Assembly (NCBI GenBank): GCA_007122985.1
Contig: SKSM01000152.1
Location: forward strand, 1-32,486
Direction: 5' to 3'
Length of the DNA stretch: 32,486 nt
DNA from: Nitriliruptoraceae bacterium
GTDB lineage: Bacteria; Actinomycetota; Nitriliruptoria; Nitriliruptorales; Nitriliruptoraceae
Shown piece after piece: positions 3,498 to 23,691 of this stretch. The position numbers and the translations under genes were made by a program. The notes under the pieces were generated by a model. That model was not told where the DNA came from. It saw only the letters and a list, made by a program, of their open reading frames with translations, and searched no databases. Positions within the stretch are counted from its first letter, which is position 1. Every line of letters starts with the position of its first letter.

Positions 3498-5717
3498 TCA
3501 GCTGCGCGGCCCCCGATCGCCATCGACCGCAGCGCCGTCGAGCCGGCCGGCGAGGTACTCGGCGAGGTGGAGGACTCGAACCTGTTGCCCCGACGCGTGG
3601 ATCCCGCCACGCAGGTGCAGGATGCAGCCGGGGTTGTCGGTGATCAGGATCGATGCATCCGTGCGGTCGACGCAGCCGAGCTTGCGATCCAGGATTCCTC
3701 GCGCCACCTCTGGGTTGCGCAGCGACGTCGAGCCGCCGAAGCCGCAGCACTCGGAGGCCTCCGGCAGCGGCACGACCGGCACACCGGCAACGTCACGCAG
3801 GAAGCGCTCCACCACGTCCTGACGACCGAGGGTGTTGCTTGCCTGGCAGAACCGGTGGACCGTGACCGGGGTGCGATCGCCGTCGTCAAGGCTTCCGGCG
3901 GGCAAGCGTCCGGGCCCCTGGGTCAGGTAGCCGATCAGGTCGTAGGTGCGGCCAGCGAGCTGTTGTGCGCGCTCCACCTCGTCGACGTCGCCGCGCAGAA
4001 GGTGGGGCGCGTCGTGGCCGAGCATCGCCAGACACGACGATGCGGGCGTGACCACGTCGTCGGCGTCGGCCAGCACCGCCATTGTCTGGCGGACCATGGC
4101 CCGGGCAGTGTCGTGCTCGCCGGAGTCGTAGGCCGGCAGCCCACAGCAGTGCTGCTCGCGCGGCACTGTGACCCGGGCGCCGGCGGCCCGCAGCAGCCTG
4201 GCGGCGGCGATGGGGATCTGCGGTGCCAGGCGGTCGGAGAGGCACTGCAGGAACAGCGACACGGACCGCCCTGCCAGCGGTTGTGCCGCCAGCCGGGGTG
4301 GTTCGTCGAGCTTGCCGGGCTTGAGCGTGTCGCGCGCCGGTCGGGCCGGGACCGCTGGCGGGGTCCGCCAGCCGGTGGCAGTGTGGACCGGCCCTCGGTC
4401 TGCCAGCAGCCGTGGCAGCGCGGTGATCCCGTCGCGTCGGAACGGGGTCGAGACGACCCCGGTGACGCGCATCCCGAGCCCGAAGAGCCGCCGGTTGGCG
4501 AACGCGCCGAGCGCGAGCGCCGTGATGCGCCCGGCAGGCACCGCCACCTCGGACTCGACGACCTTCCGCCGGACCTCCATGATCTGGACCGGCAACGGGA
4601 TGTCGACCGGGCACACCTGGGCACAGGCGCCGCAGGAGACGCACAGCGACTGCGGCCCGGCGGCGGCCTCCATCCCGTGGTGGAAGGCGGTGTTGACCAG
4701 CCCGATCGCGCCGGTATAGACGTGGCCGAACGCATGGCCACCCACGATCCCGTAGGGCGGGCAGACGTTGGCGCACGCACCGCAGCGGATGCAGCGCAGC
4801 GCCGCCGCGACGTCCGGGTCATCGGCCATCGCGGTTCGGCCGTTGTCCAGCAGCAGGATGTGCTGCCGCTGGCCCGGCCTCGGCCCGGTCACGAAGTTGG
4901 TGTAGACGGTGATCGGCTGCGCGGTCGCCGACCGGCCGAGAAGGCGAACCTGCTTCATCGCGTCCGCGTAGGTCGGTACCAGCTTCTCGATGCCCGCGGT
5001 GACCACGTGGATCGGTGGCAGCGCCACCGACATCCGGTTGTTGCCCTCGTTCTCCACCAGCATGATCGAGCCGCCCTCGGCGATGAGCGCGTTGGCTCCC
5101 GACAGCCCGACGCCGCTGGCAAGGAACCGGTCGCGCAACTGGGTCCGGGCGGCCTTAACCATCGTCGGGATGTCGTCGGGTGCGTACTCGCGGCCGAGCA
5201 CCTGCTCGAGCAGGGCGGCGATGCGCTCCTTGCGCTTGTGGATCGCCGGCATCACCAGGTGCGACGGTGTCTCGTGGGCGAGCTGGAGGATCCACTCGCC
5301 GAGGTCGGTCTCGACCGGGGTGATGCCGTTGGCCTCGAGGTGGGCGTTGAGCCCGATCTCCTCGGAGACCATCGACTTGCCCTTGACCACCAGGTCGGCG
5401 CCGGCGGCCTTGACCACGTTGGTGATGTGTGCGTTCGCCTCCCCGGGCGTGGCGACCCGGGTCACCTCCGCTCCCGCCGCGACAGCCTTCTCCTCGAACT
5501 CGTCGAGGTAGTACGACCAGTCGGCGACGACCCTGTCCTTGATCGCGGCGAGCTCCTCGCGCAGCTCGTCGAAGGAGCGGCCCTCCTGTTGCTCCAGGGC
5601 GTCGATCGCGGCGTCCCGGCTGTCGCGCCAACCGCGCTGGAAGGCGGTAAGACCGGTCCGGACGTCGTCGTCGGCGAGCGCCGCGGCGTACCGCTCCTCG
5701 AAGGGTCGCAAGGTCAT
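3498..5717 (-). CDS. Fused LutB-LutA-type iron-sulfur protein (LUD domain, 2x[4Fe-4S] ferredoxin, CCG cysteine-rich domains)
   Basis: Start MTLRPFEERYAAALADDDV at 5717; CIRCGACANVCP and CVSCGACAQVCP; C-terminal CCGLPAYDSGEH and ECCGFGGSTS LutA-type motifs; about 739 aa. Confidence 0.85.
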   Translation of the reverse strand: MTLRPFEERYAAALADDDVRTGLTAFQRGWRDSRDAAIDALEQQEGRSFDELREELAAIKDRVVADWSYYLDEFEEKAVAAGAEVTRVATPGEANAHITNVVKAAGADLVVKGKSMVSEEIGLNAHLEANGITPVETDLGEWILQLAHETPSHLVMPAIHKRKERIAALLEQVLGREYAPDDIPTMVKAARTQLRDRFLASGVGLSGANALIAEGGSIMLVENEGNNRMSVALPPIHVVTAGIEKLVPTYADAMKQVRLLGRSATAQPITVYTNFVTGPRPGQRQHILLLDNGRTAMADDPDVAAALRCIRCGACANVCPPYGIVGGHAFGHVYTGAIGLVNTAFHHGMEAAAGPQSLCVSCGACAQVCPVDIPLPVQIMEVRRKVVESEVAVPAGRITALALGAFANRRLFGLGMRVTGVVSTPFRRDGITALPRLLADRGPVHTATGWRTPPAVPARPARDTLKPGKLDEPPRLAAQPLAGRSVSLFLQCLSDRLAPQIPIAAARLLRAAGARVTVPREQHCCGLPAYDSGEHDTARAMVRQTMAVLADADDVVTPASSCLAMLGHDAPHLLRGDVDEVERAQQLAGRTYDLIGYLTQGPGRLPAGSLDDGDRTPVTVHRFCQASNTLGRQDVVERFLRDVAGVPVVPLPEASECCGFGGSTSLRNPEVARGILDRKLGCVDRTDASILITDNPGCILHLRGGIHASGQQVRVLHLAEYLAGRLDGAAVDGDRGPRS

Positions 5718-6304
5718 GGCCTGCCTTCCACGAGCTCGTCGGTCGTGGCCGTCAGCACGATCACCTCGACCTCGTCCGGACCCTGGACGCCGATCGTGAG
5801 GCTGCGTTCGATGTCCGCGGTCCGTGACGGCCCGGTCATCAACGACGCGAACCCCGGCTGTCCACCCCGGGACGCCAGCCAGTCGGCGACCTCCTCGAGC
5901 CGGTCGACGAGCCGATCGGCCGGCACGACCTGGACGAGCTGCCTGCAAAGCATCGTCACGACCCGGTCACCGAGCAGGTGCTCGGACACGAGCACGCTGC
6001 CCGTCTCCGCGATCGCAAGCTCCCCTTGGACGATGGCGACCGCGACGTCGGCGACGGACGCCGCAGGGTCGTCCTGGTCGGGGACGACGATCGCGCACCC
6101 GGCGGCCTCGAGCGCGTCGGCCAGATCGGGCTTGTCGGCGGCCAGCGACGGCGCGAGGGCGACCGTGTCCGTCCGCGCAGCGACGTACGCGACGACCGCA
6201 GACCAGTCGGGCTGCTCGAGGTAGGTCGAGGCCGCAGCCTCGACTCCGGATCGGAACCGCTCCCGCGTCGACGAGCCGGCAGCTCCGGTCGCTGTCGAGG
6301 TCAC
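5714..6304 (-). CDS. lutC: LutC/YkgG-like LUD domain protein
   Basis: Contains AETGSVLVSEHLLGDRVVTML, VADWLASRGGQPGFASLMTGPSRTADIERSLTIGVQGPDEVEVIVL; overlaps the downstream lutB-lutA start by 4 nt. Confidence 0.85.
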   Translation of the reverse strand: MTSTATGAAGSSTRERFRSGVEAAASTYLEQPDWSAVVAYVAARTDTVALAPSLAADKPDLADALEAAGCAIVVPDQDDPAASVADVAVAIVQGELAIAETGSVLVSEHLLGDRVVTMLCRQLVQVVPADRLVDRLEEVADWLASRGGQPGFASLMTGPSRTADIERSLTIGVQGPDEVEVIVLTATTDELVEGRP

Positions 6305-6394
6305 CTCGTTCCTCCTCGCGTCCCTCGGGTCGGCCACGACCGACTGGCGCGACGAATGGGGCCTTCTCGGAGACGGGGGAACCGGCACCTACCC

Positions 6395-6832
6395 CTAGCC
6401 GGACGCCGTCAGGCGCGCGAGGTCGGACAGGCCGTTCTCGAACACCCCCCGCACCAGCTCGACCGTGTCTGCCTCCTCCTCCGGCGCTACCCGGAAGTCG
6501 ACCCACCATTCGCCGAACGTGTGCCCGCTCATGGTGATCGCAGTGAACCGCGCGACCGCGTGGTAGTCGCTGACCGGCAGCGGCGATTCCAGGATGCGGT
6601 AGGCGAACTCGTGACGCTCGTCTGACAGCCCGACGAGCTGCTCACGCAGGTCACCTTCGCCCTGTGCCAGCGAGAAGCTGCGCACGCAGCCCACCTTGTC
6701 GGACGGTTGGCCGTCCTCGATCTTGCTGTTCGCGATCACCGAGGAATGCCAGTTGCCGGTGAAATCCCGGGCAACTGACCAGACCTGTTCGACCGGCGCT
6801 TCGATCACCCTGCTGACATAGATGTGTGCCAT
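6395..6832 (-). CDS. SRPBCC (polyketide cyclase/START-like) family protein
   Basis: 145 aa; MAHIYVSRVIEAPVEQVWSVARDFTGNWHSSV... typical SRPBCC N-terminus. Confidence 0.75.
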   Translation of the reverse strand: MAHIYVSRVIEAPVEQVWSVARDFTGNWHSSVIANSKIEDGQPSDKVGCVRSFSLAQGEGDLREQLVGLSDERHEFAYRILESPLPVSDYHAVARFTAITMSGHTFGEWWVDFRVAPEEEADTVELVRGVFENGLSDLARLTASG

Positions 6833-6863
6833 CAGCTCTCTCCTGTGTCTGCGCTACGGGCGC

Positions 6864-7685: not shown

Positions 7686-7686
7686 G

Positions 7687-8901
7687 TCAGCTTCGCTCCT
7701 GGGTCGTGAGTTCGATCAGCCGGTCGGCCATCACGTGCGCGAACTGCTCGTCGTTCACGGCGTGCTCGAGCTCGACCAGCTCGACGTGGTCGGCGAGGTT
7801 GTCACGAAGCGCCGAGAACAGCGCCTCGTCCGCGTCTGGATCGTGGAACACGCCACCCTCGACCGAGATCATCGAGACGCCCTTCAACGGGACGAACAGC
7901 ACCGTCGGTCCGGTGGCGGCGTTGAGCTTCTCGGCGATGATCCGCCCGAGCTCCGCGGTCTCCTCCGGTGTCGTACGCATGAGGGTGACGGTGGGGTTGT
8001 GCACGTAGAGGTTTCGGCCCTCGAAGCGCTCGGGAACGGTGTCTCTCGGGCCGAAGTTGACCATGTCGAGCGCCCCGAGCGAGACGACCTGGGGCACACC
8101 GGCACGTCCGGCGGCCTCCAGGCGGTGCGGCCCGGCCGAGAGCACACCTCCGACCAGCTCGTCACCCAGCTCGGTGGTGGTGAGGTCGAGCACGCCGCTG
8201 ACGAACCCGTCGGCGACCAGGTTCTCCATCGACTGCCCGCCGGTGCCGGTGGCATGGAAGACCAGCACCTCATAGCCGGCGGCCTCGAGGCGCTCGCGGG
8301 CCGCATCGACCGCGGGCGTGGTCACCCCGAACATCGTGGCAGCGACGGTGTGGCGCTCCGGAAGGTCGGGCACCTCAGCCTTCACCATCCCCACGATCGC
8401 AGCCGCGGCATTTGCCAGGATCCGACCAGACACGCGGTTGATCCCAGCGACGTCGACCACCGAGTACATCATGGCGATGTCGGTCGCCCCGACGTATGGG
8501 CGGGTGTCGCCTGACCCCATGGTGGAGACCAACAGCTTCGGGACCCCGACCGGCAGGGCGCGCATCGCACGAGCGGCGATCGACGAACCCCCGGAACCCC
8601 CGGCGGCCAGAACGCCGTCGAGCCTGCCCTCGTCGTAGAGACGGCGCAGCACCACCGCTGCGCCCTCGCTCATCGTCTCGACCGCAGCTCCACGGTCACC
8701 CTCGGCAGCGAGGGCAGCTGCGGACGCTCCAACGGCCTCGGCCACCTCCTCACAGCCCACGTCGGGAGAGATCTCCTGCGGCTCGCCGACGCCGACATCG
8801 ACCACCAGTGGGGTCGCGCCAGCGGCGATGATGCGATCACGCACGAAGGCGTACTCGGCACCCTTGGTATCCAACGTTCCGAGCAGTACGACCGTTGCCA
8901 C
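7687..8901 (-). CDS. Tm-1-like ATP-binding domain protein (UPF0261), copy 1
   Basis: 404 aa; [25 protein letters not shown]...[57 protein letters not shown]. Confidence 0.88.
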
Positions 8902-9005
8902 GATTCACCTCTTCTGCGGGATGATGGTCACGTTGCCACCGACCGCCCAGACCTGCTGACTGCAGGGGTCCGCAGCGGCCTCCACGACGCACCCCGGTAC
9001 GAGAT

Positions 9006-10013
9006 TCAGCTCGAGCTGCTGAACGCACTGTCGAACGAGGCATCCGACGGCTCGATCTTGACCACCTCTCGCATGAACGCGAGCGCGTCGGGCCCGCCAA
9101 TGAGCCGGTCCATCCCCGCGTCCTCCCACTCGATGGAGATCGGACCGTCGTAGCCGATCGCGTTGAGCATCCGGATGCAGGCCTCCCACGGCACGTCCCC
9201 GTGCCCGGTGGAAACGAAGTCCCAACCACGGCGCGGGTCTGCCCAGGGCAGGTGCGAACCCAGTCGACCGTTGCGGCCGTTGAGCTGCTTGACCGACTCC
9301 TTGCAGTCGACGTGGTAGATGCGGTCCTGGAAGTCCCACAGGAAGGTGACCGGGTCAAGGTCTTGCCACACGTAGTGGCTCGGATCGAAGTTGAGGCCGA
9401 ACCCGGGACGGTGCCCGATGGCCTCCAGGGTGCGAACGGTGGTCCAGTAGTCGTAGGCGATCTCGCTGGGGTGCACCTCGTGGGCGAAGCGGACGCCCAC
9501 CTCGTCGAAGACGTCGATGATCGGGTTCCATCGGTCTGCGAAGTCGGTGTAGCCACGCTCGATCATCTCTGGCGGTACCGGTGGGAACATCGCGACCGTG
9601 TGCCAGATGCTCGAGCCGGTGAAACCGATGACCGTGTCGACACCCAGCTTCGCCGCGACCCGCGCCGTGTTCTTCATCTCCTCAGCGGCGCGCTGACGGA
9701 CGCCCTCGGGCTCGCCGTCCCCCCAGATCCGTGGGGGAAGGATCCCCTGGTGACGCTCGTCGATGGGATGGTCGCAGACGGCCTGCCCGACCAGGTGGTT
9801 GCTGATGGCCCAGACCTTCAAGCCGTAGTGATCGAGCATCTCGAGCTTGCGTTCCAGGTAGCTGTCGTCCTCGAGGGCCTTGTCCACCTCGATGTGGTCA
9901 CCCCAGCAGGCGATCTCGAGACCGTCGTAGCCCCATTCAGACGTCAGTTGGCACATCTTCTCGAACGAGAGGTCGGCCCACTGGCCGGTGAACAGTGTGA
10001 TCGGACGTGGCAT
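9006..10013 (-). CDS. Sugar phosphate isomerase/epimerase family protein (AP-endonuclease 2-like TIM barrel), copy 1
   Basis: 335 aa; [14 protein letters not shown]...[13 protein letters not shown]...[12 protein letters not shown]...YHVDCKES...[12 protein letters not shown] metal-binding pattern. Confidence 0.85.
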
Positions 10014-11481: not shown

Positions 11482-12669
11482 CTACACCCCCGCGATGTCC
11501 ACCGGGGCCTGGTTGCGGGCCGATTCGAGCGCCGCGTGCAGCACTCGTTGGGTCTTCACCGCGTCGGCGAAGTCCGGCAAGGGCACGCGCGGCTGGCCCC
11601 CGCCGACCACGCTCAGGATGTCCGCGGCCTGGTTGACGAAGGTGTTCTCGTAGCCGAGACCATGGCTGTCGGGCCACCAGGCCTCGAGGTAGGGGTGGCC
11701 CGCCCCTGCCTTTGTGACGTCGATCGTCGTCCATCCCTGGACGGCAGCATCGGAACCGAAGTCGTAGAACCCGAGCTCGTTCATCCGCTCGAAGTCGAAC
11801 CGCAGCGCACCGTTCTCGCCGTGGATCTCGAAGCGGTTGGCGTTGTGGTAGCCGGTGGCGAGGCGCGTCGCCTCGAAGCTGGCGAGCCCACCTCCGCTCA
11901 TGCGACCGAGGAAGAGCACGGCGTCGTCGACGGTGCTCTTCGCGGTGCGCTCACCGGCCTCCGCGCCGGAGCCGGCGATCTCGCCGCCGGCATCCCCCTC
12001 GACGACGGTCCGCTCCTCGATGAAGGTGTGCTCGATGGCCCCGTCGACCCGAACGATCTCCTCGCCGGTGACGAACCGGACGGCGTCGATGATGTGGGCA
12101 TTGAGGTCACCGTGGGCGCCGGAGCCGGCGATGTCGCCTTGGAAGCGCCACACCAGCGGCGCATCGGGACCACCCCACCCCTGGAGATAGGCGGCACGGA
12201 CGTGGTAGATGCGCCCGAGCGCACCCGAGGAGACCAGCTGGTGTGCCAGGGCGATGGCCGGCACCCGACGGTAGTTGAACCACACGAAGGTCTGGCCCTC
12301 CGCCTTTGCGGCCGCGGCGGCCATCTCGTTGGCGTCCGCCAGCGTTCCCGCCAGTGGCTTCTCGCAGGCGACGTGCTTGCCAGCCTCGAGCGCAGCGATG
12401 GCCTGCTCGGCATGCAGGTGGTTGGGGGTGACGATGTCGACCAGACCGATGTCCTCGTCGGTGGCCGCTGCATGCCAGTCGGTGGTGGAGCTCTGCCAAC
12501 CCCAGTTCCGGGCGAACTCCTCGAGTTGCGCCGCGTTGCGTGCCGCGACGGTGTGCAACACCGGTGCCGGTGAGACGTCGAAGAACTTCGCGGCGTTGAG
12601 CCACGCATTTGAGTGCGCACGACCCATGAACTTCGAGCCGAGCAGCGCGATGTTGAGTTGATCGGTCAT
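11482..12669 (-). CDS. Gfo/Idh/MocA family oxidoreductase
   Basis: 395 aa; [18 protein letters not shown]...[44 protein letters not shown]. Confidence 0.92.
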
Positions 12670-13430
12670 GTGTCGTGTCCTTTGCTCGCGCCCCCCGGGG
12701 AGGGCTCACCGTCATCAATGCTCGCTCCGACGCCGAGGTAGCGCCGCTGGAGCTCAGCGTCGCCCAGCAGCCGGGCTGCGGTGACCTCGGTCTCGATCCG
12801 ACCGGAGACCATGACCAGCTGTCGCTCGGCCATCTCGGTCGCCGCCCGCAGGTTCTGCTCGACGACCAGGACCGCGACACCCTCCTCCACCAGGTGGTGG
12901 ACGGCCTCGATGAGGATGTCGACGATGGTGGGTGCCAGCCCCTCGGACGGTTCGTCCATCAACAGCATCGAGCCGTTGAGCAGCAGTGCGCGACCCACCG
13001 CGAGCATCTGCTGCTCGCCACCCGAGAGCTTGCCACCTCCCTGACGGCGGCGTTCAGCAAGCCTCGGGAACAGCTCGTAGACGGCCTCGGGGGTCCAACG
13101 CTTGTCACCGTTGCCCTTGGAGAGCATGGCCAGGTGCTCGTCCACGGTCAGGGACGGGAAAAGGCGTCGACCCTGGGGGACGTAGGCGATCCCGCTGCGC
13201 GCGATGCGCTCGGGCGTCTGACCGTCGATCCGCTCGCCGTCGTGGATGATCGCGCCCGACCACGGCTTGACCAGACCCATGATGGCCTCGCACAGCGTGG
13301 TCTTGCCCATGCCGTTGCGCCCGACGATGGCAACCGCCTCGGTGCCCATGTCGAAGCTCAGGTCGTCGAGGACGCGGGCCTCGCCGTAGCCGGCGCACAG
13401 GCTCTCGACACGGAAGGTGGCGTCGCTCAT
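12666..13430 (-). CDS. livF: Branched-chain amino acid-type ABC transporter ATP-binding protein LivF
   Basis: Start MSDATFRVESLCAGYGEARVLDD at 13430; Walker A GRNGMGKTTL, signature LSGGEQQMLAVGRALL; 4-nt overlaps with both neighbours. Confidence 0.92.
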   Translation of the reverse strand: MSDATFRVESLCAGYGEARVLDDLSFDMGTEAVAIVGRNGMGKTTLCEAIMGLVKPWSGAIIHDGERIDGQTPERIARSGIAYVPQGRRLFPSLTVDEHLAMLSKGNGDKRWTPEAVYELFPRLAERRRQGGGKLSGGEQQMLAVGRALLLNGSMLLMDEPSEGLAPTIVDILIEAVHHLVEEGVAVLVVEQNLRAATEMAERQLVMVSGRIETEVTAARLLGDAELQRRYLGVGASIDDGEPSPGGASKGHDT

Positions 13431-14206
13431 GCCGATGCTCCGGTGCCGAGGTAGGTCTGGAGCACCACCGGATCGTGCTCGATCTCGGAGGGCGTCCCCG
13501 CGGCGATCTGCTGACCGTCGGCCATCACCATCACACGGTCGACCACCCGCAGTGCGACGTCCATGTCGTGCTCGATCAGGAGCAGGGTGATGTCTGCGCC
13601 CAGGTCGCTGAGCAACTCGATGAGCCACTCACGCTCACCACGCGAGAGCCCGGAAGCCGGCTCATCGAGCAGAAGGATGTCCGGATCGGTCGCGACCGCC
13701 ATACCGATCTCGAGCTGGCGCTTCTGCCCGTGGGACAGGTCGCTGACGGGGGTGGCGAGCTCCTCGGTCAACCACACCGTCTCTGCGGCCGCGCGCGCCT
13801 GTTCCCGCCACGATCGGTCGGTCCCCGACCGCCACAGTGAGAGGTGTCGACCTCGCTTGCCCACCACCGCGAGGTAGAGGTTGTCCTCCACACTCAGGCC
13901 GGGGAACGAGCGCGCCTTCTGGTAGGTGCGCGCCATCCCGAACCGGGGACGGCGGCGCGACGGCAAGGACGTGCAGTCAACCCCCTTGATCATGACCGTG
14001 CCGCGCGTGGGAGTGAGATCGCCACTGATGACGTTGAACAGCGTGGTCTTGCCGGCCCCGTTCGGGCCGAGGATGGCCAGGTGTTCGCCCTTGGCGACGT
14101 CGAGATCCACGCCATTCACGGCGAAGAGACGCCCGAACGCCATCACGATCGATCGCAACCGCAGCACCTGCTCACGGTCGGACGACATGATGGCGTTCGG
14201 GCTCAT
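13427..14206 (-). CDS. livG: Branched-chain amino acid-type ABC transporter ATP-binding protein LivG
   Basis: 259 aa; LAILGPNGAGKTTLFNVISGDLTPTRG, LSHGQKRQLEIGMAVATDPDILLLDEPASGL. Confidence 0.92.
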   Translation of the reverse strand: MSPNAIMSSDREQVLRLRSIVMAFGRLFAVNGVDLDVAKGEHLAILGPNGAGKTTLFNVISGDLTPTRGTVMIKGVDCTSLPSRRRPRFGMARTYQKARSFPGLSVEDNLYLAVVGKRGRHLSLWRSGTDRSWREQARAAAETVWLTEELATPVSDLSHGQKRQLEIGMAVATDPDILLLDEPASGLSRGEREWLIELLSDLGADITLLLIEHDMDVALRVVDRVMVMADGQQIAAGTPSEIEHDPVVLQTYLGTGASA

Positions 14207-14227: not shown

Positions 14228-15739
14228 CTACTGCTGTGGGACGCCGTCCTCGACCGGGATGGCGTTGCCGACCCACGGCAGGTCCCGCTCCTCACACGGC
14301 GGGAAGTCCCGGGACGGCGCCGGAGTGTCAGCACCGAACGTGCCGCCGAAAGTCTGGTCGACCTCCGGAATCAGCGCGACCGTCTCCTGGACGACCTCGC
14401 CGCTCTCGTCATCGACGGTGAGACGCGAGATGAAGACGTCGACGATGCCGCTGCGGTTGTCGTCGAGGGCGATGTCTCCGTAGGGCAGCTCGACGCTGAG
14501 GCCCCCCAGAGCACTCTGGAGCGGCTCCGGAGACGGGTCGCCACCGGTCTCTGCAAGGCCGTCGACCAGCGCGACACCGGCCGAGTAGTAGCCGTACATG
14601 AACCCGAAGCTGGCAGCCGCTGAGGCGTCCGCACGCTCGCCTCCGGCGATGCCGGTGGGTAGCGAGTCCCAGGTCTCGTCTGCGCTTGCGAGGTACTCGT
14701 CGATCGCCGGCATCTGCACGTCGCCTGGTGGTGACGCGAAGCCACCCACATAGGCCCCCGCGATGTCCGGTCCCAGTGCCTGCGCGAGATCGGGGTTGAA
14801 GAACAGGTTGCCGGCGTGCTGATCGCCAGTCAGGTCACCCTTGGCGTCGACGAACGCCTCGAGCGCGGCCTGGGTGCCGGTACCACCGACCGCCCAGAAG
14901 TAGCCGTCGACCTCGTCGGGGTCGGGCAGCTGGGCGATGTAGGACGAGTAGTCGGTGGTCCCCAGCGGCGGGAACACCCGGGAGGTGACCTCGCCACCGA
15001 CACCACAGAACTCCGCGACGAACCCAGCGGTCGAGGTGTGACCGAAGCTGTAGTCGTCGGCGATGACCGCCGCCGTCTCCCAGCCCTCCTGGTTGTGCAG
15101 AATGTCGCCGAGCCCGGCGTTCCAGATCGCCCCTTCGCCATGGAAGCGGAAGAAGTTGGGCGCCTGAACCTCGAGCGTCGGCTCCTGCGAGCCGGCGATG
15201 CCGCTGAGGAAGGTGACGTCGGGGTTCTGCAGCGCGTACTCCGCGACCGCGATGCCCTCGTCACCGGACAGCGGCCCGATCACGACGTTGGCATCGTTCT
15301 GCTCGACGAGCTGGCGGACCTCGGCCAGGATTCGGTCGGGCGTGTCGTCACCGCAGCCGACGCCGACCAACTCGATGGGCGTGCCGTTGACTTCAGCGCC
15401 TTCCCAACCGTCGAGTGCGGTGTCGTCGGACGGCACGGTGGCCCCGGCGTGGTTGACCAGGGCGAGCGCCACACCGGCCACGGTGTCCTCGTGGAAGCCA
15501 CCGAACGGTCCCTCGCACTGTCCGAGGATCCCGAGCCGCACCTCGTCGTCGCCGTCGTCCGCGACGTCGACGTCGTCGTCAGCGTCATCTGCGTCGTCGA
15601 CGTCGTCAACGGCGTCCTCGGAATCGTCGAGTCCCGGCGGCGCGTCTGCATCATCATCGGCGCACGCCGCCACGATCAACGCGAGAGCGAATAGTGAACT
15701 GGCGACGAGTCGTCGCCCAGATGTCTTGGCTTGCTTCAT
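14228..15739 (-). CDS. Periplasmic-binding lipoprotein of LIV/HAAT-type ABC transporter
   Basis: Start MKQAKTSGRRLVASSLFALALIVAAC (lipobox) at 15739; long Asp-rich linker, then VRLGILGQCEGPFGGF... type I binding-protein fold. Confidence 0.85.
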   Translation of the reverse strand: MKQAKTSGRRLVASSLFALALIVAACADDDADAPPGLDDSEDAVDDVDDADDADDDVDVADDGDDEVRLGILGQCEGPFGGFHEDTVAGVALALVNHAGATVPSDDTALDGWEGAEVNGTPIELVGVGCGDDTPDRILAEVRQLVEQNDANVVIGPLSGDEGIAVAEYALQNPDVTFLSGIAGSQEPTLEVQAPNFFRFHGEGAIWNAGLGDILHNQEGWETAAVIADDYSFGHTSTAGFVAEFCGVGGEVTSRVFPPLGTTDYSSYIAQLPDPDEVDGYFWAVGGTGTQAALEAFVDAKGDLTGDQHAGNLFFNPDLAQALGPDIAGAYVGGFASPPGDVQMPAIDEYLASADETWDSLPTGIAGGERADASAAASFGFMYGYYSAGVALVDGLAETGGDPSPEPLQSALGGLSVELPYGDIALDDNRSGIVDVFISRLTVDDESGEVVQETVALIPEVDQTFGGTFGADTPAPSRDFPPCEERDLPWVGNAIPVEDGVPQQ

Positions 15740-15840: not shown

Positions 15841-16947
15841 CTACTTCCTTTCCTCGGTCGGCGGCGAGGTGCTGCTGTCGATCATCACGACGGGGGACTC
15901 GCCGGCGTCGTCGCCGGAGGTATCCACCCTGCCGGTGCCGTCACGGCTCGAGAATCTCGAGAACCTGCGACGCCCCTCATTGCTGAGCCGCTGGATGACG
16001 CCGCTCAGGCCCTCGGGCGAGAGCACCATGATCAGCAGCACCAGCGCGCCAATGACCGTGTTGAAGCGATCCTCGGTGATCCCGATTCGATCGACGAACG
16101 GGAGCGCGCGCAGGTAGCTGTTGGCCGCCACGTAGACGAACGCACCCAGCCAGGCGCCCTCGAGGTGGGAGATCCCCCCGATGACCGCGACGATCAGCAG
16201 CACCAGCGTGGGGCTGATGCCGATCGACGCCGGGTCGATCTGGCCGTTCCACCACACGTTGAGCAGGCCGGCCACGCCTGCGATGAACCCTGCGAGCGTG
16301 AACGCCAGCGCACGGTGCAGCGGCACCCTGAAGCCGAGCGATGCCATGCGCACCGGGTCGTCGCGGACACCCTGCAGGGCCAGACCGAACGGGGTGCGCG
16401 CCACCAGCTTGAGCACGACATAGCCGCCGATCGAGAGCAGCAGCGCGGCGTAGTAGAGGTGGGTGGCTTGAGTGATCGGCGGGGGCGGCGTGATACGCGT
16501 GATACCGCTGGGTCCCGAGATCGGCACGACCTGGGCGAAGACGTTGTAGCCGATGACGGCGTACACCAGCGTGAGCATCAGGAAGTAGATGCCGGTGGTA
16601 CGGCTCGACAGCGCCCCGAGCAGGAACGCGATGGCCGTGGCGACAGCCAGTGCGAACACGACGGCGGTCCAGGGCGCCCATCCGAGGTTGAGACCCCGGG
16701 GACTGGCCTCGAGCACCGCGTTGCCGAACATGAAGCCGGCCGTGCCGAAAAGCATCAGCTGGGCCAGCGAGACCATGCCTCCGTACGCGCTGAGGAACAC
16801 GATCGTGGCCGCGGCAAGCCCGAGTATCAGCGTTCGGGTCATGATGAAGTTGACGAAGAACGACGAACCGATAGCCGGCAGCACCACCAGGAGCGCTACC
16901 ACCGCGACGAAGGCGATGGTCGTCGGCGAGCGCAGCTGCCGGGTCAC
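15841..16947 (-). CDS. livM: LIV-type ABC transporter permease LivM
   Basis: GTG start at 16947 (VTRQLRSPTTIAFVAV...); LSAYGGMVSLAQLMLFG, GVRDDPVRMASLGF, GGISHLEGAWLGAF. Confidence 0.9.
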   Translation of the reverse strand: MTRQLRSPTTIAFVAVVALLVVLPAIGSSFFVNFIMTRTLILGLAAATIVFLSAYGGMVSLAQLMLFGTAGFMFGNAVLEASPRGLNLGWAPWTAVVFALAVATAIAFLLGALSSRTTGIYFLMLTLVYAVIGYNVFAQVVPISGPSGITRITPPPPITQATHLYYAALLLSIGGYVVLKLVARTPFGLALQGVRDDPVRMASLGFRVPLHRALAFTLAGFIAGVAGLLNVWWNGQIDPASIGISPTLVLLIVAVIGGISHLEGAWLGAFVYVAANSYLRALPFVDRIGITEDRFNTVIGALVLLIMVLSPEGLSGVIQRLSNEGRRRFSRFSSRDGTGRVDTSGDDAGESPVVMIDSSTSPPTEERK

Positions 16948-18026
16948 GCCGGCCGCCCGAACAAGCCGTAGGGCCTGACCGCCAGGACGACCGCCAGCAG
17001 CACGAAGGTCAGGATGATCGCGTAGAAGGAGTAACGGCTGGGTAGGTAGGCGGGGGCGAATGCGATCACCATCCCGTAGAGCAGGGAGCCGGCTACCGCA
17101 CCCTTGATCGAGCCGAGCCCGCCGATGATCACCACCACCAGCGAGTTCAGCAGCCAATCGCCGTCCGAGCCCGTCGCCGCCCCGGCGAAGGACGCGCCCA
17201 TCGCACCACCGATCCCTGCGAGGAACGCGCCGACGAAGAAGGTCACGGCGAACACGAAGGTGATGTTGATCCCGAGGGCGCGGACCATGGTCTCGTCGTC
17301 CACTCCGGCACGGATCACGAGACCCATACGCGTGCGGTTCAGCCACAACCACAGCAGCGCCCCGACGAGCACAGCGACCGCGAGCATGAACAACCGGGTG
17401 GTCGCGTAGCGCTGACCCAGGATCTCTATGAAGTGGGTCACCGAGCCCGGCCAGGTCATCCTGAGCGCGAGCCCGCCGAAGTGGTTGAGCATCTGATCGG
17501 CCATGATGACGGTGATCGCCAGGGTGATCAGCGCCTGTCGCAGCTCTTGGCCCTGGTTCCAGCGCAGGAACAGCTGCTGGAGGATCAGACCGACGCATGC
17601 GGCCACCAGGGCGCCGACGAGCATCGGCACGACCCAGTCGAGGATCCCGACCTCGTCGGCCACGATGTTGCGAGACTTGCCGAGCATCGCATGCTGGACA
17701 TTTATCGCCACGAACGCCGCGAGCAGAAACAACGACCCGTGGGCCATGTTGACGGTCCGCATCAAGCCGAAGATGAGCGTGAACCCCGAGGCCACGACGA
17801 ACAGCAGGCCGGCGAAGGTGATCGCGTCGAGGAGGGTGACTACGAAGCGCCCCGGATTCGAGACGGCCGGACCAGCGGGACTGTCGCCGGCGATGAACAG
17901 CACCCACACCACCACGAAGGCCGCAGCGGCATAGGCGACCGCCTTGGGCAGGGCATAGACGACGGATCGCTTGCTATCTGCCGTGCCATCACCCGCCTGC
18001 GGCGCCTGGCCGACCGCTGTTGACAT
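16944..18026 (-). CDS. livH: LIV-type ABC transporter permease LivH
   Basis: Start MSTAVGQAPQAGDG at 18026; LIFGLMRTVNMAHGSLFLLAAF, IRAGVDDETMVRALGINI, IGGLGSIKGAVAGSLLYGM. Confidence 0.9.
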   Translation of the reverse strand: MSTAVGQAPQAGDGTADSKRSVVYALPKAVAYAAAAFVVVWVLFIAGDSPAGPAVSNPGRFVVTLLDAITFAGLLFVVASGFTLIFGLMRTVNMAHGSLFLLAAFVAINVQHAMLGKSRNIVADEVGILDWVVPMLVGALVAACVGLILQQLFLRWNQGQELRQALITLAITVIMADQMLNHFGGLALRMTWPGSVTHFIEILGQRYATTRLFMLAVAVLVGALLWLWLNRTRMGLVIRAGVDDETMVRALGINITFVFAVTFFVGAFLAGIGGAMGASFAGAATGSDGDWLLNSLVVVIIGGLGSIKGAVAGSLLYGMVIAFAPAYLPSRYSFYAIILTFVLLAVVLAVRPYGLFGRPA

Positions 18027-18128
18027 GCCTCTCCCTTGCCACCCGCGCAGAGCGGGTCCTCCCGAAGCTCCCGGCCGGCCTCTCGTCTCCCGTGGTCCGA
18101 AGGGCCGGCGGTGAGCTCTCCTCGCCAA

Positions 18129-18224
18129 ACAATACAGAAACCAGCGCAGGATGCAACCTTGAATACAGGGCTTGACACCAACCGATGTACTGGCTTAGGT
18201 GCCATGCATACATTCCGGGATGCA
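18129..18224. promoter_or_regulatory. Candidate divergent promoter/operator region
   Basis: Minus-strand TTGCAT-(16)-TATTGT (18156..18129); plus-strand TTGACA at 18172-18177 with weak TTAGGT at 18195-18200; three ATACA repeats (18132, 18163, 18208); TGCAT(10)ATGCA inverted repeat 18205-18224. Confidence 0.4.
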
Positions 18225-18266
18225 GGCCCTGACACTGGGATGCGGGGCGGGACCAGAGAGGACGGC

Positions 18267-19721
18267 GTGTCGATGCGGCCGTACATACTTGGGCAGCTGA
18301 CCAGGGATCTGGCCGCGGCCGTGGGAAGCGAACACGTCAGCTCAGATCCCCGTGTGGTCACCGAGCAGGCAACGGACTGGTCGTGGATGTCGCAGTACCT
18401 GTCCTATCGCGACCTGCCCCTGCCCACGGCCGATGTGGCGGTTTGGCCGACGACCACTGAGGAGGTCGAGTCGGTGGTGCGGATCGCCTCGGAGTACCGC
18501 GTCCCGGTGATCCCACGCGGCGGCGGCTCCGGCACCCAGGGCGGAACCTTCGCCCTCTACGGGGGCATCGCGGTCGACATGACCCGCATGAACCGCATCA
18601 TCGACATCGATGAGACGAGCCTGGTGGCGACCGTCCAGGCGGGCGTCGACGGCGCGGTCCTCGAGAAGGAACTCAATCCCCTACGCCTCACCCTGGCCCA
18701 CTACCCCGGTTCACACCACCTCGGTGCGACGATCGGTGGATCCCTGGCCGCCCGAGGTTCCGGGGTCGTATCCACCAAGTACGGCAAGGCCGAGGACATG
18801 GTGCTCCAGGCGGAGGCCGTGGTGCCGCCAGGTCGGCGGGTCCGGACGCTGCCGATCCCCAGCCACGCCGCCGGTCCCGATCTGCTCCAGACGCTCGTGG
18901 GCTCCGAGGGCACGCTCGGGCTGATCACCGAGGTCGCCGTGCGTCTGGACCCGCTGCCCAAGGGACGGCGCTTCCTGTCCTACCGGTTCGACGACGTCGA
19001 GGACGGATTGGAGGCCGCACGCCGAATCATGACCAAACGGGTCGTTCCCGCAGCCATGCGCCTCTACGACGAGGCGGACAGCGCCAAACTCACGGAGATG
19101 ATCGACGTCGGCACCGACGGCGTGCTACTCGTCATCGTCCTCGATGGGACCGACGACACGATGATGGCGGTGGAGCACGAGGCCATCGCGGCGGAGTGCA
19201 CCAACGGCTCGGACCTGGGTCGCGGCCCGGCAGAGTCCTGGTGGGATGGCAAGTACGAGCCGTACCGCGACGGCAACGCTCCGGCTCCGCCACTGTTGTT
19301 CGGCACCACCGATACCTGTGCACGGTTCGTCGATCTGCCGCGCCTCTACCACGCGAAGAAGGCGGCGATCGAGGAAGGGTTCGCCGAGTACGGAGCCCGC
19401 TATACGGCGCACTTCTCGCACTGGTATCCGTGGGGTGGGATGATCTACGACCGCTTCTACGTCGACAACCCTCCCGAGGATCCCGACGAGGCGCTCGCAC
19501 TGCACGACCGGCTGTGGGACGCGGCCGTGCACACCTCGCTCGCCAACGGCGGGATCATCAATGATCACCACGGTGTCGGGCTCAAGCTCGGGCGCTTCAT
19601 GCGCCCGCAGCATGGTGAGGCGTTCGAGCTCATGCTCGCGATCAAGCACGCTTGGGACCCTGACGGGATCATGAACCCCGGCAAGCTGGGGTTCGGGGCG
19701 CCACGAGCAGCGGCCGGCTAG
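18267..19721 (+). CDS. FAD-linked oxidase (GlcD/D-lactate dehydrogenase-like)
   Basis: Start GTG 18267 or ATG 18273 after GAGAGGA; VPVIPRGGGSGTQGG, GSHHLGATIGGSLAARGSGVVSTKYGKAEDMVL, GSEGTLGLITEVAVRLDP, HAWDPDGIMNPGKLG. Confidence 0.9.
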   Translation: MSMRPYILGQLTRDLAAAVGSEHVSSDPRVVTEQATDWSWMSQYLSYRDLPLPTADVAVWPTTTEEVESVVRIASEYRVPVIPRGGGSGTQGGTFALYGGIAVDMTRMNRIIDIDETSLVATVQAGVDGAVLEKELNPLRLTLAHYPGSHHLGATIGGSLAARGSGVVSTKYGKAEDMVLQAEAVVPPGRRVRTLPIPSHAAGPDLLQTLVGSEGTLGLITEVAVRLDPLPKGRRFLSYRFDDVEDGLEAARRIMTKRVVPAAMRLYDEADSAKLTEMIDVGTDGVLLVIVLDGTDDTMMAVEHEAIAAECTNGSDLGRGPAESWWDGKYEPYRDGNAPAPPLLFGTTDTCARFVDLPRLYHAKKAAIEEGFAEYGARYTAHFSHWYPWGGMIYDRFYVDNPPEDPDEALALHDRLWDAAVHTSLANGGIINDHHGVGLKLGRFMRPQHGEAFELMLAIKHAWDPDGIMNPGKLGFGAPRAAAG

Positions 19722-19772
19722 CTCAAGACGAACGGTAAGGAGCGATCAGCACGGCGACATGTCGAGCCATTG

Positions 19773-19799
19773 GTCCCGGGGCGGCCATGATCCCGGGAC
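19773..19799 (+). other. Strong intergenic hairpin GTCCCGGG-(11 nt)-CCCGGGAC
   Basis: Perfect 8-bp arms (19773-19780 / 19792-19799) between FAD oxidase and SPI genes; no T-tract after it. Confidence 0.6.
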
Positions 19800-19820
19800 G
19801 CGGAGAAGGGAGCGGGAGAG

Positions 19821-20705: not shown

Positions 20706-20715
20706 ACGAGGTTCC

Positions 20716-20742
20716 TGGGGCTCGCCTGCCGGGCGGGCCCCA
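20716..20742 (+). other. Strong intergenic hairpin, about 11-bp stem with one G-T wobble, 5-nt loop
   Basis: T-GGGGCTCGCC-TGCCG-GGCGGGCCCC-A; between SPI and Tm-1-like genes; no T-tract. Confidence 0.6.
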
Positions 20743-20765
20743 TCGTTGACACGTTGCGAGTCGCG

Positions 20766-22004
20766 ATGACCCCCACAATCGCCGTCCTGGCCACCCTGGA
20801 CACCAAAGGCCCGGAGGCCGCCTACATCCGCGACCGGCTCACTGACGCCGGACTGCAGCCGCTTGTGATCGACTGTGGCATCCTCGGCGATCCACTGGAC
20901 ATCGTTCCCGACGTCTCCAACGAGGACGTGGCGCGGCACGGTGGCAGTTCCATCGTCGAGCTGCGGACAGCAGGCACGCGTGGGCGTGCCGTGGCTGCGA
21001 TGCGCACGATGCTCAGTGACCTGGTCGAACAGCTCTACTCCGACGGGCAGTTGCACGGCGCCATCGGCATCGGTGGAGCCGAAGGTGCGGTGATGACCGC
21101 CAGTGCGTTGATGCGCCTGCCCGTGGGCGTCCCCAAGTTGGTGATCTCCCCGATCGCCTCGGGGCGCCACGAGTTCGGCCCGCTGGTCGGCACGCGGGAC
21201 ATGATGGTCATGCACTCGGTCGTGGACATCCTCGGCCTCAACGAGATCGCCTGCACGGTGTTCGACAACGCCGTGGCCGCCGTGGCAGGGATGATCGAAC
21301 GGGGTCGTCGGAGCAGCGGCCCGGATCCCGATACCGCGGCCCGTACCGTCGCCCTGACGATGTTGGGCAACACCACACAGGCGATCATGGCGGCCCGCGA
21401 GGAGCTGGCCACAGCCGGCTTCGAGTCCACCGTCTTCCACTCCAACGGGGTGGGTGGACCCGCCATGGAGGAGCTGGCCTCCGAGGGCTACTTCTGCGGG
21501 GTCATCGACTTCACGACCAACGAGGTCACTGACCCGCTCGTCGGTGGCATCCACGATGGTGGGCCCGATCGACTCCGGATCATCGGTGAACTCGGTCTGC
21601 CCCAGGTGATCGTGCCCGGCTGCATCGACTTCGCCGTGTTCGAGCCCTCCCGGATCACCCCTGAGCTCGCGGAGCGCCCCAGCTACGACCACAACCCCGA
21701 GTTCCGTCTGATCCGCATGTCCGCGGAGGAGATGGTCACCATCGCCGGGGTATTCGTGGAGCGCCTCTCGTCTGCCCGTGGACCCGTGCAGGTCGCGGTA
21801 CCGACCAACGGGCTGTCGATCCCCAACACGCCCGACGGCCCGTTCTGGGATCCCGATGCCGACGCCGGCTTCCTCGAGGCACTCAGCGGCGGGCTCAGAT
21901 CCGACATACCGATCACCACCTACGACCACCACGTGAACGATCCGGAGTTCGGACGGCTCGTAGCACGACTCTTTGTTGCGATGGCCCAGGAGGTCAAGGC
22001 ATGA
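20766..22004 (+). CDS. Tm-1-like ATP-binding domain protein (UPF0261), copy 2
   Basis: MTPTIAVLATLDTKGPEAAYIRDRLTDAG...[44 protein letters not shown]; alternative TTG start at 20754. Confidence 0.88.
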   Translation: MTPTIAVLATLDTKGPEAAYIRDRLTDAGLQPLVIDCGILGDPLDIVPDVSNEDVARHGGSSIVELRTAGTRGRAVAAMRTMLSDLVEQLYSDGQLHGAIGIGGAEGAVMTASALMRLPVGVPKLVISPIASGRHEFGPLVGTRDMMVMHSVVDILGLNEIACTVFDNAVAAVAGMIERGRRSSGPDPDTAARTVALTMLGNTTQAIMAAREELATAGFESTVFHSNGVGGPAMEELASEGYFCGVIDFTTNEVTDPLVGGIHDGGPDRLRIIGELGLPQVIVPGCIDFAVFEPSRITPELAERPSYDHNPEFRLIRMSAEEMVTIAGVFVERLSSARGPVQVAVPTNGLSIPNTPDGPFWDPDADAGFLEALSGGLRSDIPITTYDHHVNDPEFGRLVARLFVAMAQEVKA

Positions 22005-22918
22005 GCTCGACATTCACCCGCAAGGCCGCCCACCTGACCGAGGACGACGCGGACTTCCGGGCGAAGTTCCGGTCGTGGGGGCTGGCGGACCTCTCCTACG
22101 TGGACATCCGCGAGTACCTCGCGGTCAAGGACCTGGTGCTCGTCCCGATGGCCAGCACCGAGCAGCACGGGCCTCATCTGCCGCTCTACACCGACACGGT
22201 CACGGCCGTCGAGGTCGCTGCCCGCGTCTCAGAGCACATCGGGGTCCTGCACACCCCACCGCTGTGGGCCGGCTACTCGCCGCAGCACATGCATGAGCCC
22301 GGTGAAGGGCGCGGCACCATCACGCTGCGCGCGAGCACGTTGACCAACCTGATGTACGACGTCGCGCGGAGCCTGATCCACCACGGCTTCAACCGGATCA
22401 TCTTCGTCAACGGGCACGGCTCGAACGTCAAGGTCGTCGATCCCGTGCTGCGCCGGCTGCGCTACGAGACCGGCGCGCTGATCGGTCTGGTCAGGCCCTA
22501 CATGGAGCGCTACATCGGACTGCTCGAGGGGCTGATGGAGAACCCGCCGGAGGAGACCCCGGGCTGGCACAGCAGCGAGCTGGAGACCTCGCAGGACATG
22601 GCCTGGAACGAGGACCTGGTACGCATGGAGCGCGCCGCCGACACCCGGGCCGCGGTCCCCGACTTCCTGCCCGAATCGTTCCGCAAGACCGATGGTGCAC
22701 CTGACGTCGAGTTCGAGGGCTACCAGTACTTCAACTTCCCGATGGACCACCACGAGTTCATCGACAGCGGGACGATCGGCAACCCCATGCGTGCGACCAA
22801 GGAAAAGGGGGAAGAGGCCTTCCGTCGATACGCTGAGCACGTCGCGCGTGGCGTGCTGGAGCTGATGGAGGTTCCAGTCACCGTTCACGACCGGGAGTTC
22901 ATCGATCGGGTGGTGTGA
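22001..22918 (+). CDS. Creatininase family protein
   Basis: 305 aa; VLVPMASTEQHGPHLPLYTDTVTAVEVA...GTITLRASTLTNLMYDVARSLIHHGFNRIIFVNGHGSN; 4-nt overlap with upstream gene. Confidence 0.9.
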   Translation: MSSTFTRKAAHLTEDDADFRAKFRSWGLADLSYVDIREYLAVKDLVLVPMASTEQHGPHLPLYTDTVTAVEVAARVSEHIGVLHTPPLWAGYSPQHMHEPGEGRGTITLRASTLTNLMYDVARSLIHHGFNRIIFVNGHGSNVKVVDPVLRRLRYETGALIGLVRPYMERYIGLLEGLMENPPEETPGWHSSELETSQDMAWNEDLVRMERAADTRAAVPDFLPESFRKTDGAPDVEFEGYQYFNFPMDHHEFIDSGTIGNPMRATKEKGEEAFRRYAEHVARGVLELMEVPVTVHDREFIDRVV

Positions 22919-23691
22919 TGCAGTCCGAGCCAGCTCAGGCCAAGGCACAGGACGACGAGGGTGCCGCCGGCGACCCCCCGGGTTCGATGGTGGCCCGGAT
23001 CTACGAGACACTGCAGTCGGCCATCGTCCAGGCCCGCCTGGGAGCCGGCACGCCGCTCTCGCAGAACAAGCTGGCCAGCCAGCTGGGGGTGAGCCGGACC
23101 CCCGTCCGTGAGGCGCTTCTGCGCCTGGAGCACGACGGGTTGGTCCAACGCTCGGCCGGGTTCGGGTTCGTCGTCACAACGATCACCCCGGACGAGGTCA
23201 ACGAAGCCTGCGACCTACTCAAGCTGCTCGACCGGTTCGTCTACGTCCGTGCCGCCCGCAGCCTGACCTCCGAGGAGCTCGACGAGCTCCATGAGCTAGC
23301 CAAGAGCCTGGTCGACAACGCCGAGCGCGGCGACACCGACGCCTGGCGCAAGGCCGACCTCCGCTACCACGAGATGGTGATGAACGCCGCCAACAACCGC
23401 TACGTGGCCGACTACCTGGAACGGACACGCGGACGCGTTCAGCGCTTCTGGCTGCAGAAGCCCCACTTCGACGGCCGCCTCACCAGCTGCTCCCAGGACC
23501 ACGTCTCACTCGCCCAAGCGATGGTCGACCACGACGAAGAGGCGTTGGTCGCCGCAGTCGACGCACACATCGAACGGCTCCGCGAAGGCGTGCTCATGCG
23601 CCTGGAGAGCGCGATGCCGCTGCTGCCCCACCTCGATCCGCTCGGAAGCGTGTTCTCCCAGGATGAGGCAACGCTCGACACTCAGGACTGA
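22915..23691 (+). CDS. GntR family transcriptional regulator, FCD (FadR) subfamily
   Basis: IYETLQSAIVQARLGAGTPLSQNKLASQLGVSRTPVREALLRLEHDGLVQR then FCD-like effector domain; GTG 22915 or ATG 22918 start. Confidence 0.92.
   Translation: MMQSEPAQAKAQDDEGAAGDPPGSMVARIYETLQSAIVQARLGAGTPLSQNKLASQLGVSRTPVREALLRLEHDGLVQRSAGFGFVVTTITPDEVNEACDLLKLLDRFVYVRAARSLTSEELDELHELAKSLVDNAERGDTDAWRKADLRYHEMVMNAANNRYVADYLERTRGRVQRFWLQKPHFDGRLTSCSQDHVSLAQAMVDHDEEALVAAVDAHIERLREGVLMRLESAMPLLPHLDPLGSVFSQDEATLDTQD

Follow-up and report, generated by a model that had tools for sequence, protein, structure and literature searches.

A conserved divergent gene island with Tm-1-like UPF0261 proteins and a xylose isomerase in a Nitriliruptoraceae genome, a candidate undescribed catabolic system

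Several described pathways resemble parts of the gene island studied here, an 18-gene candidate catabolic system of a Nitriliruptoraceae bacterium (GenBank assembly GCA_007122985.1, contig SKSM01000152.1); the window analysed is this whole contig (C100; 32,486 nucleotides, nt), which belongs to a 3.19 Mb actinobacterial metagenome-assembled genome (MAG) with a completeness of 75.6%. Levoglucosan is degraded via LgdA and LgdB2 in a route of oxidation, elimination and hydration (PMC7676230), and threonate catabolism, in the Otn scheme, starts with an oxidation, goes on with the isomerisation of a 2-keto to a 3-keto form, and ends with phosphorylation and C-C cleavage (PMC12540250). Acetovanillone catabolism in Novosphingobium aromaticivorans begins with the single-component kinase MarK (PMC13101465), and the UPF0261 and PEP_hydrolase families co-evolve, both being domains that are fused in plant Tm-1 (PMC5028733).

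The levoglucosan pathway (LgdA-LgdB1-LgdB2-LgdC) shares with the island a Gfo/Idh gene near that of a PF01261 barrel of ~335 amino acids (aa) matching 2-hydroxy-3-keto-glucal hydratase, as well as an ATP-binding cassette (ABC) importer; unlike it, the island has no assigned LgdB1 or LgdC, its Gfo/Idh protein scores below the family cut-off, and additional UPF0261, PEP_hydrolase-like, flavin adenine dinucleotide (FAD)-linked, creatininase-family and XylA proteins are encoded. The XylA-XylB pathway has its counterparts in a true class II XylA here and in a XylB within the operon of relatives, but here XylA lies inside an 18-gene island whose remaining enzymes are unneeded for xylose itself. The Ltn/Otn pathways (LtnD, OtnI, the DUF1537 kinase OtnK, and OtnC) offer a similar logic of 2-hydroxy-acid oxidation, TIM-barrel isomerase, kinase and C-C cleavage, whereas three of the four steps would be carried out here by other families, namely a FAD/Fe-S dehydrogenase, a UPF0261 kinase and a creatininase-family cleavage enzyme. 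The Thermotoga inositol pathway (IolG, IolM, IolN, IolO) likewise combines a creatininase-family hydrolase, an SPI epimerase and a Gfo/Idh protein; here, however, all of them fall below the family cut-offs, and UPF0261 and XylA/XylB are foreign to the Thermotoga scheme. The L-glucose pathway of Luteolibacter, in the available part of its description, is without UPF0261, creatininase or xylose isomerase. Finally, MarK/Saro_1862 and plant Tm-1 have the full-length UPF0261 fold, and the two fused domains of Tm-1 correspond to a UPF0261-PEP_hydrolase gene pair of the island, yet the setting here is carbohydrate catabolism rather than aromatic catabolism or antiviral defence.

Layout and conservation of the island

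The island consists of a minus arm of 13 genes and a divergent plus arm of 5, with 4-nt overlaps at LutC/LutBA (5714-5717), LivF/Gfo (12666-12669), LivG/LivF (13427-13430), LivH/LivM (16944-16947) and UPF0261#2/creatininase (22001-22004), and with a GntR/FCD regulator gene at the end of the plus arm, much as an earlier note on this DNA had described it (about 18 genes). The families named in that note are all in place, except that UPF0261 is represented by two paralogues and that a single open reading frame (ORF) encodes LutB and LutA as a fusion. From position 18026 downward, the minus arm runs LivH, LivM, binding lipoprotein, LivG, LivF, Gfo/Idh, XylA, SPI1, UPF0261#1, PEP_hydrolase, SRPBCC, LutC and LutB-LutA; the plus arm runs FAD-linked oxidase, SPI2, UPF0261#2, creatininase family and GntR/FCD. 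Pfam and NCBIfam matches across both arms comprise two UPF0261 proteins, PEP_hydrolase (PF09370), creatininase, three PF01261 TIM barrels, LUD/CCG/Fer4, GntR-FCD and a complete LIV set, as follows:

3498..5717, minus strand: LutB-LutA fusion, LdhH-like (LUD, two [4Fe-4S] and CCG), 740 aa, single ORF; NF045670 627 bits (cut-off 800), Pfam LUD/CCG; accessory
5714..6337, minus strand: LutC-like LUD protein; PF02589 66 bits
6395..6832, minus strand: small SRPBCC (Polyketide_cyc2) protein, from Pfam; a 51% identical copy lies beside UPF0261-PEP_hydrolase in locus L014
6864..7685, minus strand: PEP_hydrolase-like TIM barrel, partner of UPF0261#1; PF09370 432 bits; 2p10
7687..8901, minus strand: UPF0261#1 (Tm-1-like), probable ATP-dependent kinase; PF06792 and PF23189; 3wry, 9mpy
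9006..10013, minus strand: SPI1, TIM barrel resembling 2-hydroxy-3-keto-glucal hydratase; 2zds 605 bits, 8ro4 137 bits
10095..11426, minus strand: XylA, xylose isomerase class II; TIGR02630 636 bits (cut-off 533); 1a0e
11482..12669, minus strand: Gfo/Idh/MocA dehydrogenase, levoglucosan-dehydrogenase-like; NF052479 322 bits (cut-off 650); 4h3v, 6a3f
12666..13430, minus strand: LivF-type ATPase, from family profiles
13427..14206, minus strand: LivG-type ATPase, from family profiles
14228..15739, minus strand: HAAT-type binding lipoprotein; Peripla_BP_6
15841..16947, minus strand: LivM-type permease; BPD_transp_2
16944..18026, minus strand: LivH-type permease; BPD_transp_2
18027..18239, no strand: divergent promoter region; two GnATnCA-N5-GnATnCAG repeats that may be GntR sites; also in relatives, suggestive only
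18240..19721, plus strand: FAD-linked oxidase (GlcD/D-lactate dehydrogenase/ADPS superfamily); PF01565 and PF02913
19821..20705, plus strand: SPI2, ketose-epimerase/isomerase barrel (IolO/D-tagatose 3-epimerase/OtnI kind), from family profiles; catalytic motifs present
20754..22004, plus strand: UPF0261#2 (Tm-1-like), probable ATP-dependent kinase, core gene; PF06792 and PF23189
22001..22918, plus strand: creatininase-family hydrolase, core gene, immediately 3' of UPF0261#2; PF02633 200 bits, IolN model 86 bits
22915..23691, plus strand: GntR/FCD regulator, from family profiles

Below, UPF0261#1, UPF0261#2 and the PEP_hydrolase-like barrel are called UPF1, UPF2 and PEPH, and the FAD-linked oxidase, SPI2, UPF2 and the creatininase-family protein form the core quartet.

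Searching 84,980 species genomes with a UPF2 alignment yielded 251 relatives, and the 80 best of them were analysed; locus counts seeded in this way describe the relatives of UPF2, not genomes at large, and they depend on gene calls by a simple codon-usage script in loci that are often MAG contigs, with poor performance in the AT-rich L082, L121 and L122. Among these 80 loci, the FAD enzyme is encoded in 75, SPI2 in 69, UPF2 in 80 and the creatininase-family protein in 76, the full quartet being present in 61; for the 50 loci with long flanks the counts are 49, 42, 50 and 48, with 40 full quartets. Carriers of the quartet, with taxa as labelled in the records, belong to Actinomycetota, Chloroflexota, Rhodothermales, Acidobacteriota, Poribacteria, Planctomycetota and Deinococcota (Trueperaceae). 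Cultivable carriers include Agreia sp. Leaf283, Homoserinimonas sp. OAct 916 and Salinibacterium (loci L062, L070, L078). A Euzebyaceae MAG of the same class and another family (L003, genome G270) has the divergent layout in full, most of its genes being 70-86% identical; across L003 and L026 the cluster is matched at 68-86% identity, it is also found in L023-L025, L027 and L106, and other Actinomycetota orders share the arrangement at 63-87% identity. In Chloroflexota the order is UPF1-PEPH-SPI1-Gfo-FAD-FeS-SPI2-UPF2-creatininase, collinear on one strand, with an Fe-S protein gene directly after that of the FAD enzyme. Because of this collinearity, the pairs UPF1-PEPH and SPI1-Gfo belong together with the quartet, although each of the three may also occur without the others. 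The same gene set and order recur in unrelated genomes, and we are highly confident that the genes form one conserved island. The earlier note had read them as a single pathway, and on neighbourhood evidence that reading held, homologous clusters being widespread and conserved as a unit; its description of the system as undescribed is in line with the searchable literature on UPF0261, Tm-1-like and PEP-hydrolase proteins, whose titles and abstracts show no catabolic pathway.

Two side observations were made on these loci. Genes of the ThuA family (PF06283), which is linked to 3-keto-sugar metabolism, adjoin the quartet in four Rhodothermales loci (L032, L033, L035, L048). Further, L068 and L090, recorded as Bifidobacterium breve and Rubrivirga, carry actinobacterial clusters resembling those of freshwater/marine Micrococcales/acI, so that these MAG names look wrong.

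Xylose isomerase and proteins resembling 3-keto-glycoside enzymes

The XylA of the island exceeds the class II cut-off over its full length (positions 1-435), its catalytic His/Asp, Lys and metal-ligand motifs are intact and in register with 1a0e, and in a genome-wide check it was the sole xylose isomerase found in the MAG. The isomerisation step proposed earlier includes a true xylose isomerase, which in relatives is paired with XylB: in three Nocardioidaceae/Jiangellales genomes (G398, G399, G401), the genes of Gfo/Idh, a 414-aa TIM barrel, XylA, PEPH, XylB and UPF1 stand in a row on one strand. The best XylB of the genome studied here is encoded on another contig (C218); sharing only 48.5% identity with the XylB that relatives carry in the cluster, it is not a clear orthologue of the latter. 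Three loci each of Chloroflexota (L028, L110, L111) and Micrococcales (L090, L096, L113) have a xylose isomerase of the other class (class I, TIGR02631) beside the quartet, mostly with a xylulokinase, and in L028 and L090 it scores above the cut-off. Overall, a XylA gene lies within ~12 kb of UPF2 in ~12 of ~39 genomes, where ~1-3% per genome would be expected from genome size (binomial P <= 1e-9, or <= 6e-8 when only ~8 independent lineages are counted, a rough estimate in which genomes or lineages count as independent). Two non-orthologous xylose isomerase classes have been recruited beside the same quartet, and this is the strongest indication that the path really includes D-xylose/D-xylulose; judging from these gene associations, we consider it quite probable that xylose/xylulose lies on the path, which very likely converges on D-xylulose-5-phosphate.

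Eight Chloroflexota loci (L028, L030, L046, L050, L051, L110, L111, L120) carry with the quartet a second xylose-isomerase-like protein of ~320-360 aa, at ~200 bits to TIGR02631 (below the cut-off). In three Nocardioidaceae/Jiangellales loci (L103, L105 and L106, at ~6-17 kb), genes for an IlvD/EDD dehydratase, an SMP-30 (SGL) lactonase, a FAH-family protein and a zinc alcohol dehydrogenase adjoin the cluster as an apparently separate oxidative sugar pathway.

SPI1 best matches 2zds, an uncharacterised relative of solved structure, and its homology to 8ro4, a 2-hydroxy-3-keto-glucal hydratase, is full-length (residues 16-329). In the closest relatives of the cluster, L003 (13634-14878) and L106 (3717-4961), its position is occupied by a 414-aa PF01261 protein that is very distant from it and matches nothing in PDB or NCBIfam. 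The nearest named enzyme to the Gfo/Idh protein is levoglucosan dehydrogenase, at about half the cut-off score; inositol dehydrogenases and the scyllo-inositol/L-glucose dehydrogenase 5ya8 are also matched, and the D-xylose 1-dehydrogenase Gfo6 weakly so (68 bits). In sequence, the Gfo/Idh protein and SPI1 resemble LgdA (3-dehydrogenase) and LgdB2 (hydratase), respectively.

UPF0261 proteins, the plus arm and accessory genes

Both UPF0261 paralogues exceed the cut-offs of PF06792 and PF23189, and they have many invariant charged residues in common. The AlphaFold model of UPF2 (mean predicted local distance difference test score, pLDDT, 91) matches Tm-1, an ATP-binding protein, and 9MPY, which is Saro_1862, a UPF0261 domain protein of N. 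aromaticivorans with acetovanillone bound and the sole ligand-bound bacterial structure. The bound acetovanillone, the start of acetovanillone catabolism with the kinase MarK, the invariant charged residues and the ATP binding of Tm-1 together argue for UPF0261 as an ATP-dependent small-molecule kinase, an assignment that we regard as somewhat probable. The activation or cleavage that the earlier note had ascribed to these proteins as an unknown step would accordingly stand as activation, better read as ATP-dependent phosphorylation in view of 9MPY and MarK. Beyond their own family, a structure search returned domain-level likeness to UDP-GlcNAc 2-epimerase-type folds only, which was not used for function.

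The PEPH model is nearest to 2p10, followed by the 2-methylisocitrate lyase/phosphoenolpyruvate (PEP) mutase superfamily and phosphate-binding barrels, a likeness that would fit C-C cleavage of a phosphorylated acid. In both arms, therefore, a UPF0261 gene appears to be paired with that of a putative C-C-cleaving partner, either PEPH or the creatininase family. As a tentative proposal, UPF0261 proteins might make up a large family of kinases for sugar acids that has gone unrecognised, every member having its dedicated C-C-cleaving partner (creatininase-type for UPF2, PEP_hydrolase-type for UPF1), in an undescribed pentose/acid-sugar pathway across ~seven phyla; if true, plant antiviral Tm-1 would derive by fusion from such a pair of catabolic enzymes in bacteria. 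Outside the sugar island, a UPF0261-PEPH-SRPBCC triplet also occurs together with genes for an ABC ATPase and a GntR protein (L014, 6933-9503), and it seems that UPF0261-PEPH is regularly accompanied by SRPBCC or cupin proteins.

The FAD enzyme of the plus arm is alike over its full length to glycolate/D-lactate dehydrogenases and locally to alkyl-DHAP synthase. SPI2 matches the models of IolO (the best, NF041099, 141 bits against a cut-off of 300), psicose epimerase and, more weakly, OtnI, and its structure matches include the IolO protein TM_0416. The creatininase-family protein stays below the cut-off of IolN (NF041098, 245 bits), the creatininase model scoring higher. The amide/lactam hydrolysis suggested for it earlier is not required, since IolN, of the creatininase family, cleaves a cyclic diketone. 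Sister clusters add genes for a lactate-racemase-family LarA and a molybdenum (MoCo) aldehyde dehydrogenase, both of which would be expected if an aldonic acid is involved; in L050 and L120, a tripartite ATP-independent periplasmic (TRAP) transporter had been guessed from gene sizes and was ruled out, the Pfam matches being to the MoCo aldehyde dehydrogenase. No DUF1537 kinase was found in the Pfam matches of the cluster proteins or among the 25 commonest of 140 neighbour families. By analogy, the plus arm might follow an Otn-like order of steps, which we consider rather doubtful.

Neither cut-off is reached by the LutB-LutA protein (TIGR00273 343 bits against 445, besides NF045670), and its set of LUD, Fe-S and CCG domains is complete. 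In relatives, LutA, LutB and LutC are split, follow the GntR gene and are only ~31-41% identical to the Lut proteins of the window; in L024, L025 and L027, GlcDEF-like genes accompany them beside the cluster. Because glycolate/lactate enzymes recur beside the cluster in two non-orthologous versions, the gene content suggests a small hydroxy-acid product. The Lut genes, to which the earlier note had ascribed the disposal of a lactate/2-hydroxyacid-like product, are a recurrent, non-orthologous neighbour and not part of the core.

In the 213-bp region between the arms, the two similar repeats recur in L026 and partly in L023 and L024, a weak hint at common control of both arms; the FCD consensus TNGTNNNACNA was not found in this divergent promoter region, where the weaker repeats are present instead.

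Proposed model and alternative explanations

In the model that we favour, to which we give about an even chance, the genes are one catabolic island for a xylose-containing or xylose-yielding compound, with a 3-keto-glycoside entry and an Otn-like acid-sugar branch. The substrate would be imported by the LIV-type proteins; Gfo/Idh would oxidise C3 of the glycosyl ring, and SPI1 would perform elimination/hydration as in levoglucosan-type 3-keto-glycoside cleavage, freeing a pentose. XylA would convert D-xylose to D-xylulose, from which xylulose-5-phosphate would be formed by a xylulokinase whose gene lies within the operon in relatives and elsewhere in this genome. In the acid-sugar branch, the FAD-linked enzyme would oxidise a 2-hydroxy acid, SPI2 would isomerise or epimerise the resulting keto acid, UPF2 would phosphorylate it and the creatininase-family enzyme would then hydrolyse a C-C bond; UPF1 and PEPH could be a second pair of kinase and C-C lyase. 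Small hydroxy-acid products, glycolate or lactate, would pass to the Glc/Lut-type enzymes, and GntR/FCD would control both arms. The analysis itself establishes the anatomy, the protein families, the conservation and the link to xylose; kinase activity, step order, regulation and substrate are what we infer. A xylose joined to a sugar acid would employ every gene; such a xyloside as the substrate is nevertheless quite unlikely in our estimate. Glucuronoxylan (aldouronate), considered since it would match xylose combined with an acid, would be speculation, with only one GH43 among 84 scanned neighbours, in which no search was aimed at GH67/GH115.

Several points weigh against this model. Among the catabolic enzymes of the island, XylA alone scores high enough to pass the cut-off of a named functional family; the window encodes no xylulokinase, and none of the proteins was assigned as a glycoside lyase or 3-keto-sugar reductase. 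The identity of Saro_1862 with MarK, on which part of the kinase argument leans, is inferred. Near the quartet of Rhodothermales and others, SPI1, Gfo/Idh and XylA are missing; therefore, the quartet alone may serve another substrate. This last point also bears on the possibility, unlikely in our view, that independent cassettes (XylA/XylB; UPF1-PEPH; FAD-SPI2-UPF2-creatininase; Lut) sit in one transporter island but do not make up a single pathway, for which it speaks together with the stand-alone UPF1-PEPH of many actinobacteria, the location of XylA-XylB outside the island in most genomes and the variation of Lut genes among relatives. Such independence is hard to reconcile with the three genomes that interleave XylA/XylB with PEPH/UPF1 in one operon, the collinear Chloroflexota clusters and the recruitment of two xylose isomerase classes beside the same quartet.

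Other substrates can be weighed on individual proteins. A cyclitol route as in Thermotoga, in which Gfo/Idh and the FAD enzyme yield a diketo-inositol, an IolN-like creatininase opens the ring, an IolO-like SPI2 epimerises and UPF0261 phosphorylates, would draw on the IolO and IolN matches, TM_0416 and the likeness of Gfo/Idh to inositol dehydrogenases, including 5ya8; yet the IolO and IolN scores are far under their cut-offs, the creatininase model outscores IolN, and this route is decidedly unlikely. To our knowledge, the Thermotoga inositol pathway uses no xylose isomerase or xylulokinase, which would be without a role in it. Plain use of xylose/xylonate, with Gfo/Idh as a xylose 1-dehydrogenase and the plus arm degrading xylonate in parallel to XylA/XylB, is improbable: the Gfo6 match and the dehydratase, lactonase, FAH and alcohol dehydrogenase genes adjoining the cluster in Jiangellales/Nocardioidaceae are consistent with it, but Gfo/Idh is far closer to levoglucosan dehydrogenase and SPI1 to 3-keto-glucal hydratase, and the window is without lactonase or dehydratase. 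For an aryl-glycoside (O- or C-xyloside), UPF0261 would phosphorylate the aromatic aglycone while the sugar enzymes process the freed pentose. Acetovanillone in 9MPY points in this direction, as do the weak matches of the binding lipoprotein, whose closest structures are the HAAT receptors 4zpj and 4ey3, the latter an aromatic-acid receptor. Related 3-keto-C-glycoside lyases split aryl-C-glycosides by the same oxidation-elimination scheme (PMC13273386). With no aromatic-ring oxygenase, demethylase or carboxylase prominent among the recurrent neighbour clusters, and with the sugar enzymes SPI2 and XylA/XylB as core partners, we hold this to be highly improbable.

Overall, the interpretation of the earlier note is partly supported. 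If the catabolic-island model is true, chemistry would be assigned within one pathway to the UPF0261, PEP_hydrolase-like and creatininase-like families, now named by number or resemblance, and a metabolic hypothesis would be at hand for the original role of plant Tm-1, a protein found throughout the land plants and, apart from virus inhibition, without an explanation. MAGs from several groups that are abundant in aquatic habitats (acI/Planktophila, Nanopelagicales, Chloroflexota, Rhodothermales) carry the core, which may matter for the turnover of plant- or algae-derived sugar acids.

Elsewhere in the window, two small overlapping ORFs of 105 and 113 aa at the contig edge (316-971, minus strand) look by eye like a RelE/ParE-type toxin and an antitoxin. 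Downstream of the island, a BCCT-family betaine/carnitine/choline transporter is encoded at 25844-27448 (plus strand), and after it comes a pair of ABC-2 type exporter genes (27631-29396).

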